From the NCBI RefSeq assembly GCF_020982545.1, contig NZ_JAJKLK010000001.1, forward strand, positions 496,001 through 560,000: DNA of 64,000 bases. Direction: 5' to 3'. Source of the stretch: Streptomyces sp. MNU76. GTDB lineage: Bacteria > Actinomycetota > Actinomycetes > Streptomycetales > Streptomycetaceae. Positions 9,837 through 12,770 of the stretch are shown in pieces. Below the pieces are notes generated by a model. It searched no databases. It saw nothing but the letters and a program-made list of their open reading frames with translations, and had not been told where the DNA came from. The position numbers and the translations under genes were made by a program. Position 1 is the first letter of the stretch. Each line of letters starts with the position of its first letter.

Positions 9837-10412
9837 CTACGCCCGGTGAGCCGTGAGATACCGCTGCACGGTCGGCCCCATCCACTCCACGATCTCCTCG
9901 CGGCTCAGCGCCACGGTCGGCGGGAACCGCAGGACGTAACGCGTCAGAGCCAGCCCCAGCACCTGTGACGCGCAGAGCGCGGCCCGGGTCCCCGCCTCCT
10001 CGGGGCGCGGGCACACATGCCGGGCGAGCGGCAGCAACTGGTCCCGGAAGACTCCCTGCATCCGTTCGGCGCCCGCCTGGTTCGTGGTGCCGACCCGGAG
10101 CATCGCGGTGAGCATCTCGTTCTCCTCCCAGAGGTCGAGGAAATGGCTCACCAGCACCCGGCCCACCTCCCGCGCGTCGAACGCGCCGGGATCCGGCAGC
10201 CGCAGGTCGACGTCGAGCGCCGCGGCGTACAGCCCCTCCTTCGAGCCGTAGTACCGCATGACCATCGACGGATCGATCCGGGCGTCCTTGGCGATCGCCC
10301 GGATGGTGGCCCCGTCGTACCCGTCGGCCGCGAACCGCTCGCGCGCCGCCCGGAGGATCGCGTGCCTGGTCGCGTCGGACCGGCGGGGTGCGGGTCGTGC
10401 CGTGTCGTTCAT
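9837..10412 (-). CDS. TetR-family repressor of the adjacent FAD monooxygenase
   Basis: A 191-residue protein starting MNDTARPAPRRSDATRHAIL. The N-terminal helix-turn-helix is at about residues 30-52 (YDGATIRAIAKDARIDPSMVMRY), followed by the usual KEGLYAAAL. The C-terminal ligand domain is helical and lacks recognisable contacts. A longer in-frame start upstream would lie within the operator array and is rejected. It is divergent from the FAD monooxygenase gene with a 110-bp gap full of CAAC/GTTG palindromes. The inference is that it represses both genes and is released by a phenolic or polyketide-like substrate, as in many TetR/monooxygenase pairs. Confidence 0.93.
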   Translation of the reverse strand: MNDTARPAPRRSDATRHAILRAARERFAADGYDGATIRAIAKDARIDPSMVMRYYGSKEGLYAAALDVDLRLPDPGAFDAREVGRVLVSHFLDLWEENEMLTAMLRVGTTNQAGAERMQGVFRDQLLPLARHVCPRPEEAGTRAALCASQVLGLALTRYVLRFPPTVALSREEIVEWMGPTVQRYLTAHRA

Positions 10413-10413
10413 G

Positions 10414-10510
10414 CCAACAAACGTAGGCCAACAGCTGTTGACAGTCCAGGGTCGCGTCCCTACGTTTGACAACAGGCGTTGGCCAACAACCGTTGACCAA
10501 CACGTGTTGG
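10414..10510. promoter_or_regulatory. Operator array of the TetR/monooxygenase divergent promoter
   Basis: Four palindromes with the core CAAC-N4-GTTG are visible: CAACAGCTGTTG at 10429, CAACAGGCGTTG at 10470, CAACAACCGTTG at 10484 and CCAACACGTGTTGG at 10497. The last three are spaced exactly 14 bp centre to centre. A fifth degenerate half site (CCAACAAACGTAGG, 10414) is also 14 bp from its neighbour. A 10-bp inverted repeat, CAAACGTAGG / CCTACGTTTG, brackets the centre (10418 and 10459). Confidence 0.8.
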
Positions 10511-10522
10511 CAGGAGGCCGCC

Positions 10523-12174
10523 ATGAACGGCAAGCGCGACGACGACACCACCACCCGCACCCTTCGCCCCCAGAACGCCCAGGGTGCCCAGGACGCTCAC
10601 GACCCGCGCGGCGTCGTCGTGGTGGGCGCCGGTCCCACCGGACTGCTGCTCGCCGGCGACCTCGCCGCCGCCGGCGTCCCCGTCACCCTCGTCGAGAAGC
10701 GCGAGCACCGGATCAGCAACCTCTCCCGGGCCTTCGTCGCACACGCCCGCACCCTGGAGCAGCTCGACGCCCGGGGCCTCGCCGACGAGCTGGAGGCCAG
10801 GGGCCGGCGCCTCGACCGCATCGCCCTCTTCGGGCGCCTCTCCGTCCGCCTCGACACCCTCCCCTCCCGTTTCAACCACCTCCTGGTGATCCCGCAGTAC
10901 GAGGTCGAGGAGGTCCTGGAGCGGCGGGCGGTGGAGGCCGGGGTGCGGTTCCGGTACGAGACGGAGGTGACGGCGGTCGTGCAGGGCGAGGGTGAGGTCG
11001 CGGGCGAGATCGCGAGCGGCCCCGGGGGCGCGCACGGCCCCGGGGGCGCGCACGGTGCCGGGAGCACGGACGGTGTCGCGGTCGACGTACGGACGGCGGA
11101 CGGTGGCACCGACCGGCTGACCGCCGCGTACGTCGTCGGGACGGACGGGCACCGCAGCGCGGTCCGCGAGGCGGTGGGGCTGCCGTTCCCGGGGAAGTCC
11201 GTCATCCGTTCCGTGGTCCTCGCGGACGTACGGCTCGACGAACAGCCGGAGGAGGTGCTGACCGCGAACGCCGTCGGCGACGCCTTCGCCTTCATCGCGC
11301 CCTTCGGCGACGGCTACCACCGGGTCATCGGCTGGCACCGGGGCCGTGACGTCCCCGACAGCGAGCCGCTCGACCTCGACGAGGTCAGGGAGATCACCCG
11401 GCTCGCGCTCGGCCGCGACTACGGCATGCGGGACGCCCGCTGGATGTCCCGCTTCCACTGCGACGAGCGCCAGGCCCCCGCGTACCGGGTCGGCCGGGTC
11501 TTCCTCGCCGGTGACGCCGCCCATGTGCACACCCCGGCCGGCGGGCAGGGCATGAACACCGGGCTCCAGGACGCCGCCAACCTGGGCTGGAAGCTGGCCG
11601 CGGTCCTGGGCGGCCACGCGGACCCCGCCCTTCTCGACAGCTACCAGGCCGAACGCCACCCCGTCGGCCGGGCCGTGCTCCGCAGCAGCGGCGGCATCGT
11701 CCGTCTCGCCATGGCCAAGTCCCCCTGGATGCTGGCGCTCCGCACCGCCCTGACCACCTTCGTCAACCATGTTCCCCCGGCCCGCACCCGAGCGATCGGC
11801 CAGATCACCGGGATCGGCTACGAGTACCCCGCCCCGCGCGGCGCCCACCGCCTGGTCGGCACCCGTGTGCCGGACGTCGCCCTGTCCACCGGCCGCCTCT
11901 ACGAGGCCCTGCGCGGTGGCCGCTTCGTCCTCGTCGGCCCCCGCGGCGCGACCCGGCCCGCCGCCCGGCCCGCCGCCCTCGACGGCCCACAGGGTGCGAA
12001 CGAGCCCCTCGTCCTCGGCGCACGCAAGGACCGCCTCACCTCGGCGACCTGGACGAGCGACCGCCGCACCACCGTCCTCGTCCGTCCGGACGGCTACGTG
12101 GCCTGGGCGGCGGAGGACGCGGACGACGCGGCGGTCGAGGGGCGCTCGCGCAGTGGGTGGGGGCGGCCGCTTAG
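10523..12174 (+). CDS. FAD-dependent aromatic/polyketide monooxygenase, probable frameshift near its end
   Basis: A flavoprotein hydroxylase of the PheA/TetX class. The ATG at 10523 follows CAGGAGG. The dinucleotide-binding GxGxxG is VVVGAGPTG (about residues 32-40). The middle motif is TDGHRSAVREAVGL (about 200-215). The FAD GD motif is FLAGDAAHVHTPAGGQGMN (about 330-348), and a thioredoxin-like C-terminal domain ends RPDGYVAWAAED. As sequenced, the frame runs on to a stop at 12397 with a basic, Pro-rich tail antisense to the MarR gene. Adding one G to the GGGG at 12139-12142 gives a normal ending ALAQWVGAAA and a stop at 12174. I give the restored end. Substrate unknown; it is controlled by the divergent TetR gene. 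Confidence 0.88.
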
Positions 12175-12251
12175 CGGGCGCGGGTGGTGGCTCGAGCGGG
12201 CGGCTCGGGCGGAGCCTCAGGACCCGCTCAGCACCCCGTCCCCACGACCGC

Positions 12252-12770
12252 TCAGGACCCCGTCCCCACCACCAGCAGTCTCAACAGGTCGGCCAGTTGG
12301 CCGGCCTGTTCGTCGTTCAGGTGGGCGAGCGCCTCGGCCTGGACGGCGACGCCCGCCCCGACGGCTTCGTCGATCAGGCTCAGGCCCTCCTCGGTGAGGG
12401 TGACCTGGAGGGCGCGGCGGTCGTGCGGGTCGGGGGAGCGGCGCAGGAGACCCGCGCGTTCGAGTTTGTCGAGGCGGCCGGTCATGCCGCCGGTGGTGAG
12501 CATGAGCGTGGCGGAGAGTTGGCGCGGCGAGAGCGTGAACGGCTCGCCGGAGCGCCGCAGGGTCGCGAGCACGTCGAACTCGCCGCGCGAGATCCCGAAC
12601 CGCCCGTACGTCTTCTCCATCAGGTCGCCGAGGGTCCGGGAGAGCCGGTTGACGCGGCCGAAGACCGCCATCGCGGTGGTGTCGAGGTCGGGCCGGGCGG
12701 CCGCCCACTGGTCGATGATCGCGTCGACGGGGTCGCGGAGCGGCTGGTCGGGCTCGGAACGCGGGTTCAT
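12252..12770 (-). CDS. MarR-family transcriptional regulator
   Basis: A 172-residue winged-helix protein starting MNPRSEPDQPLRDPVDAI. The DNA-binding part covers about residues 60-125, with the recognition helix in SPRQLSATLMLTTGGMTGRLDKLE and the wing at RSPDPHDRRALQVTLT. The N- and C-terminal helices form the dimer interface. It is divergent from a DMT-family exporter with a palindrome between them, a classical efflux-control layout. No active-site Cys of the OhrR type is seen, so a small-molecule ligand is more likely than peroxide. Confidence 0.92.
   Translation of the reverse strand: MNPRSEPDQPLRDPVDAIIDQWAAARPDLDTTAMAVFGRVNRLSRTLGDLMEKTYGRFGISRGEFDVLATLRRSGEPFTLSPRQLSATLMLTTGGMTGRLDKLERAGLLRRSPDPHDRRALQVTLTEEGLSLIDEAVGAGVAVQAEALAHLNDEQAGQLADLLRLLVVGTGS

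Follow-up and report, generated by a model that had tools for sequence, protein, structure and literature searches.

A conserved 14-bp-step palindrome array as a putative operator between a TetR-family gene and a divergent monooxygenase gene in Streptomyces

The 110-bp gap between a TetR-family gene and a divergent FAD monooxygenase gene of Streptomyces sp. MNU76 holds an array of CAAC-N4-GTTG palindromes at a 14-bp step, and this array is a real, deeply conserved, putative operator. Comparison with related loci lends strong support to the operator-array reading. The explanation that we favor, with a rough probability of 0.72, is that of a dedicated TetR operator, through which both genes would be repressed by cooperative, outward loading of dimers, from which a ligand would release them, and whose length would tune the response. 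The odds expressed for this and for the rival explanations overlap, as mixtures are possible, and do not sum to one. Positions are those of the window, meaning the whole stretch of 64,000 nucleotides that was analyzed. The genes and the array, which in the window comprises 2 + 3 units, are as follows.

9837 to 10412, minus strand: TetR-family repressor gene, 191 amino acids (P0001), ATG at 10412; presumed to bind the array, from its Pfam matches and from orthologs with the same array
10415 to 10426, unstranded: unit −2, CAACAAACGTAG; inward half-site degenerate (GTAG), overlapping the candidate tetR −10 box
10429 to 10440, unstranded: unit −1, CAACAGCTGTTG; putative core operator, its right end part of the monooxygenase −35 box
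10470 to 10481, unstranded: unit +1, CAACAGGCGTTG; putative core operator, starting 3 bp past the −10 box, over the likely transcription start
10484 to 10495, unstranded: unit +2, CAACAACCGTTG; two perfect halves
10498 to 10509, unstranded: unit +3, CAACACGTGTTG; two perfect halves, immediately upstream of the ribosome-binding site
10523 to 12397, plus strand: FAD-dependent monooxygenase gene of the aromatic-ring hydroxylase type (P0002), ATG at 10523; presumed target

Exactly four exact matches to CAACNNNNGTTG were found in the 64-kb window, all inside the gap (units −1, +1, +2, and +3); in 100 shuffles, the mean was 0.45 and no count was as high as four. The step among the units starting at 10470, 10484, and 10498 is exactly 14 bp, and the degenerate fifth unit starts 14 bp ahead of 10429. 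The sequence-only reading, which had described three palindromes 14 bp apart and a fourth with a degenerate partner, was thus correct in coordinates and spacing. The two sub-arrays are separated by a step of 41 bp rather than 42. Comparison of the orthologs extends the motif to a full 16 bp, GYCAACRNNYGTTGRC, such that adjacent units overlap by 2 bp.

Membership of the regulator in the TetR family was evident from Pfam matches to TetR_N (PF00440, 45 bits against a cut-off of 24) and TetR_C_16 (PF17920, 100 bits against a cut-off of 26) and from an all-helical AlphaFold model (mean pLDDT 89); the model is monomeric and therefore uninformative on dimer contacts on DNA. SCO0857 (PDB 2np3) is the best solved relative by sequence (E of 3.3e-18) and is the top match of the fold search (TM 0.69), yet it shares 28% identity in the fold alignment. 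The monooxygenase, whose ATG is preceded by GGAGG at 10513 to 10517, matches FAD_binding_3 (PF01494) and Rng_hyd_C (PF21274) above the Pfam cut-offs. A rifampin monooxygenase (Rox/Iri) was considered as the target enzyme and rejected, as the protein is related to the NCBIfam models but scores well under both cut-offs (rif_monoox, 318 bits against 800; Iri, 203 bits against 950). Between 12100 and 12397, the monooxygenase frame seems to shift. In three orthologs, the protein stops soon past the corresponding point, and the ortholog-like tail (...ALAQWVGAAA) is found in another frame, with a stop at 12174; a small frameshift or an assembly error near the 3′ end is likely.

Conservation was assessed in two samples. 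A scan of named genomes returned 515 TetR relatives, and among the best 80 of these 515, all titled Streptomyces and 70 to 94% identical, a monooxygenase homolog was present upstream on the opposite strand in 80 of 80 loci (about 1.4 kb off in one of them, L059). Together with the window, these 81 regions contained 224 exact palindromes, distributed over 79 regions, at pairwise distances of 14, 28, 41/42, and 55/56 bp and so on. In the second sample, 296 genomes of the class were searched for TetR homologs at E ≤ 1e-30; homologs were found in 58 genomes, and the analysis covered all 62 matches besides that of the window itself. Not every genome has the pair, a TetR homolog at this threshold being absent from 10 of the 28 genomes of the same genus.

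Two or more units exactly 14 bp apart were present in 127 of the 129 loci with a TetR identity of at least 45% (window included), compared with a mean of 0.2 and a maximum of 2 loci in 50 rounds of shuffling. The array therefore withstood one refutation that the sequence-only reading had set for itself, namely, a lack of conservation in orthologous promoters. At a TetR identity of at least 64%, runs of two or more units were found in 96 of 97 loci and runs of three or more in 81 of 97; at 50 to 64%, the corresponding numbers were 28 of 28 and 1 of 28, and at 45 to 50%, a run of at least two was seen in 3 of 4 loci. Below 45%, no 14-bp run was found in any of 14 loci; four of these (L154, L155, L156, and L166) carry one palindrome per side, 43 to 44 bp apart, with a divergent monooxygenase gene. 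The 50 to 64% class draws 26 of its 28 loci from four other families (codes f4, f17, f19, and f37) and the remaining two, L149 and L151, from the genus itself; in all 26 loci of the other families, two units were present on at least one side. A unit on the monooxygenase side accompanied an adjacent monooxygenase gene in 119 of 122 loci, versus 3 of 7 loci with none adjacent within the fetched sequence, the latter a small number that includes L059, which has only one-mismatch sites.

Two further observations concern the distribution of the array. Locus L111, from another family (f19), encodes a TetR protein 71 to 73% identical to that of the window and has a Streptomyces-like 3 + 3 array; horizontal transfer is possible. 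Four genomes of the genus Streptomyces (L148 to L151) encode TetR homologs of about 50% identity next to the same motif, in 2 + 3, 2 + 2, 2 + 2, and 2 units, respectively. Two of these genomes (L148 and L150) also hold a closer copy of the TetR gene, which raises a question of cross-talk.

Candidate promoter elements for both genes were placed in the gap.

10438 to 10443, plus strand: candidate monooxygenase −35 box TTGACA, from sequence; conserved
10461 to 10466, plus strand: candidate monooxygenase −10 box TACGTT, from sequence; 17-bp spacer
10443 to 10448, minus strand: candidate tetR −35 box TGGACT, from sequence
10420 to 10425, minus strand: candidate tetR −10 box TACGTT, from sequence and inference; mirrors the monooxygenase −10 region

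The pattern TTGACN at the end of unit −1, followed after 17 bp (64 loci) or 18 bp (44 loci) by TAnnnT, was present in 108 of the 129 loci, compared with 2.6% of shuffled gaps when spacers of 16 to 19 bp were accepted. Of the 21 loci that lack it, 14 have a TetR identity below 64% and 7 have one of at least 64%. Unit +1 starts 3 bp past the −10 box in 82 of the 108 loci, and in these the step across the promoter is 41 bp with the 17-bp spacer (52 loci) and 42 bp with the 18-bp spacer (30 loci). Because the 3-bp distance is kept and the step tracks the spacer, each sub-array appears to be tied to its promoter element and not to the other sub-array; across 112 loci the step varies from 38 to 48 bp, and the sub-arrays are not rigidly phased. 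A generic promoter scan reported no promoter in the gap, as its rule requires four of six matches in the −10 box and TACGTT has three. With 7 nucleotides between the candidate tetR −10 box and the ATG, the tetR mRNA would be leaderless. The locus has the anatomy of a divergent TetR gene with a near operator, with its neighbor less than 200 bp away and palindromes over both predicted promoters.

An outer inverted repeat, which the sequence-only reading had taken as part of the operator array, is formed by CAAACGTAGG at 10418 to 10427 and CCTACGTTTG at 10459 to 10468. The repeat is real, 10 bp long, and perfect, but it is probably no operator element: it coincides with the two predicted −10 boxes, and twin divergent TACGTT boxes explain its symmetry. 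It is best read as the putative −10 boxes of two divergent promoters, which replaces its interpretation as a further operator.

The 14-bp step itself is close to invariant. When nearest-neighbor distances were taken over 143 loci between sites with at most one mismatch, 345 were 14 bp and 2 were 13 bp, while none were 12 or 15 bp; 4 at 27 bp, 20 at 28 bp (a skipped unit), and 125 at 40 to 45 bp (the step across the promoter) were also recorded. These 143 TetR rows, 142 of them distinct (L079 equals L112), include many close relatives and are not independent loci, so sign and Fisher tests on them overstate independence. By arithmetic, 14 bp corresponds to 1.33 helical turns, which would place successive dimers about 120 degrees apart and return them to the same face after three steps, or 42 bp.

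Half-site polarity and unit numbers were counted over the 112 loci with a recognized promoter step of 38 to 48 bp, with runs extended through units of at most two mismatches; 17 of the 129 loci fall outside these counts, in part since a unit-like stretch bridges the promoter (e.g., L036), and extension with at most three mismatches left out 27 of 129. Loci contain 3 to 13 units in total. The core units are mostly intact (perfect halves in 104 and 110 of 112 and in 106 and 104 of 112). On the monooxygenase side, the outward half was perfect in 95 of 100 second units and the inward half in 69 of 100, and for third units the numbers were 46 and 22 of 57. The tetR side showed a steeper asymmetry (102 outward versus 14 inward of 109 second units, and 36 versus 1 of 53 third units), although polarity there is confounded by the tetR −10 box, GTAG being the complement of CTAC. 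Beyond the fourth unit, the counts are too small to show polarity, and in the window itself polarity is confined to unit −2, with +2 and +3 perfect in both halves. The alternative phase, with GTTG-N2-CAAC as the true palindrome, was rejected, because in outer units the outer half is retained and the inner half decays, and because isolated CAAC-N4-GTTG sites, exact or with one mismatch, occur in the four homologs below 45% identity that have a divergent monooxygenase gene.

Array length appears to have changed often: at least 47 changes in run length are required by a quick TetR tree whose support is weak at 56 of 139 inner branches. Locus L036 carries, at 2808 to 2903, a long 14-bp run that includes four identical adjacent units; it amounts to 8 units by the run rule applied to the identity classes and to 2 + 7 by unit scores, compared with 3 in the near TetR relatives L046 and L054, and by its sequence is a recent expansion. 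An ancestral one-plus-one array that grew stepwise was suggested by the identity classes and set aside, as the tree, whose root is unsure, puts the four loci below 45% identity with one palindrome per side within the ingroup.

The sequence-only reading had also pointed to the rest of the genome as a place to look for the same palindrome. Single CAACN4GTTG matches occur at 45 places in the genome of the strain (the array's four included), versus 32 for a reversed control. A two-unit model, built on sequence from 34 of 49 two-unit sequences, found no place besides the window array in the 10.5-Mb genome (E ≤ 10; 150 of 1,778 first-look candidates scored). This absence of a second match suggests an operator dedicated to this locus, and a wider regulon was rejected within the same search. 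On another contig of the genome (C19), palindromes TGTCAACCAGGGTTGACA and TGTCAACTTAGGTTGACA lie 28 bp (2 × 14) apart at 1561 to 1604 of locus L171, upstream of a short open reading frame and then, by eye, a Clp-N-like one. As the array model gave no match there, these are probably sites of another regulator.

The mechanism that we propose would run as follows. The adjacent TetR protein would use the array, with one dimer per 16-bp palindrome, to repress both the gene that encodes it and the divergent FAD monooxygenase gene. The predicted monooxygenase promoter holds two strong core units, −1 over the −35 box and +1 over the likely transcription start, and dimers would load here first, shutting that promoter. 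Further dimers would then be added outwards in 14-bp steps, aided by contact with a bound dimer, and this contact would allow outer units to tolerate a decayed inward half-site; the outward spread would close both promoters. A small-molecule ligand, plausibly a substrate or product of the monooxygenase, would free the dimers together, and array length, evolving by 14-bp units, would tune how strong and how steep repression is. We consider the strict spacing and the half-site polarity across loci to be best explained by several dimers loading cooperatively. Binding by this TetR protein, cooperativity, ligand release, tuning, and steepness are what we infer from these patterns.

More tentatively, and at odds clearly short of even, the array may act as an evolvable operator ruler, with nucleation at the core, a helical filament extending outwards in 14-bp steps of about 120 degrees, relaxed inward half-sites, and gain set by the number of units. 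Half-sites that face a bound neighbor would be relaxed from selection as protein contact replaces them, and species would shift the gain of the switch by gaining or losing 14-bp units.

Two other explanations are unlikely, to a similar degree. Only core units −1 and +1 might matter, with the others arising as by-products of slippage or duplication that raise the local repressor concentration without dimer contact. The expanded run of L036, the many run-length changes on the tree, and the lower scores of outer units in most loci all fit such an origin, and the exact 14-bp spacing could come in part from tandem duplication of a 14-bp unit. Neutral copies, however, would not be expected to retain a perfect outward half in second units (102 of 109 and 95 of 100) while the N4 core varies, and the presence of two units on at least one side throughout the four other families likewise argues against it. 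Several dimers could instead bind independently and form a roadblock without cooperativity, covering both promoters and repressing additively, much as SCO7222 is reported, in the available text of PMC3511530, to bind a TetR/monooxygenase gap at three discrete regions and to give three shifts. Independent sites have no need of an exact 14-bp step, yet the distances fall at 14 bp in 345 pairs and at 13 bp in 2. A regulator other than the adjacent TetR protein is a far more improbable reader of the array: the binding of the adjacent protein is deduced from sequence, but in several families the motif accompanies this TetR lineage, the two-unit model has no other place in the genome among the 150 of 1,778 candidates scored, and the 14 homologs below 45% identity all lack the 14-bp run. 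Chance or a simple tandem repeat with no regulatory role can be dismissed, for although the units do form a short tandem repeat, a trio of exact units 14 bp apart never arose in 20,000 Markov-shuffled versions of the local region, and the conservation in 127 of 129 loci also weighs against it.

Under cooperative loading of a dedicated operator, the unit number that varies between species looks like a naturally tunable on/off switch. The loci constitute a natural promoter series, with one repressor lineage, one operator motif, and differing unit number (3 to 13, 112 loci), which makes the relation of operator multiplicity to switch steepness, and its evolution, directly testable. Streptomyces engineering could also draw on the array for tunable parts. 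Within the open-licence literature, no publication on this array was found by title or by the start of the abstract.

The closest precedents are EthR/ethA and SCO7222/SCO7223. The EthR operator spans 55 bp, about 4 × 14, and EthA is an FAD enzyme. As in the window, EthR of Mycobacterium is a TetR repressor encoded divergently from a monooxygenase gene across a short gap, of 75 bp in its case. Cooperative binding of EthR as a homo-octamer between the TetR and monooxygenase genes is described in the accessible part of PMC5403819; its motif differs, being characterized in excerpts of PMC4482099 as larger, more complex, and without a classical palindrome. The strict 14-bp spacing and the half-site polarity are consistent with an EthR-like mechanism, in which several dimers would bind one gap cooperatively. 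No chain named EthR was present, by printed name, among 34 phmmer matches of the TetR protein at E ≤ 0.001. The array is thus EthR-like as far as its anatomy goes, with no sequence link to EthR in that run.

SCO7222/SCO7223 of Streptomyces coelicolor likewise pairs a TetR gene with a divergent monooxygenase gene and has three perfect operator palindromes (PMC3511530, in the portion available). Its operator is TGGAACGNCGTTCCA, and protection there falls into three discrete regions of a 146-bp gap, which this portion does not describe as a contiguous 14-bp array; an operator of the SCO7222 type was rejected for the window, where the motif is GYCAACRNNYGTTGRC. The same text considers TetR regulators with a divergent neighbor less than 200 bp away to be mostly likely repressors of that neighbor. 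DarR and QacR resemble the proposed array in placing more than one dimer on an operator. In the available text of PMC10636190, DarR dimers touch and bind overlapping palindromes, with one subunit on a non-optimized half-site, which provides a structural precedent for the proposed contact between neighbors. Both systems differ in scale, with two dimers on a 20-bp site for DarR and two on a 28-bp site for QacR (PMC4482099, in part) and not, as far as these texts extend, two to eight units arranged in tandem. The statement in the sequence-only reading that TetR sites usually comprise one or two palindromes accordingly needs qualifying, since multisite, multidimer operators are known from EthR, SCO7222, and DarR in the sources above. 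Judged by sequence, what appears to set the present array apart from these cases is the combination of a clean 16-bp palindrome, an exact 14-bp tandem step, a variable number of units, and half-site polarity.
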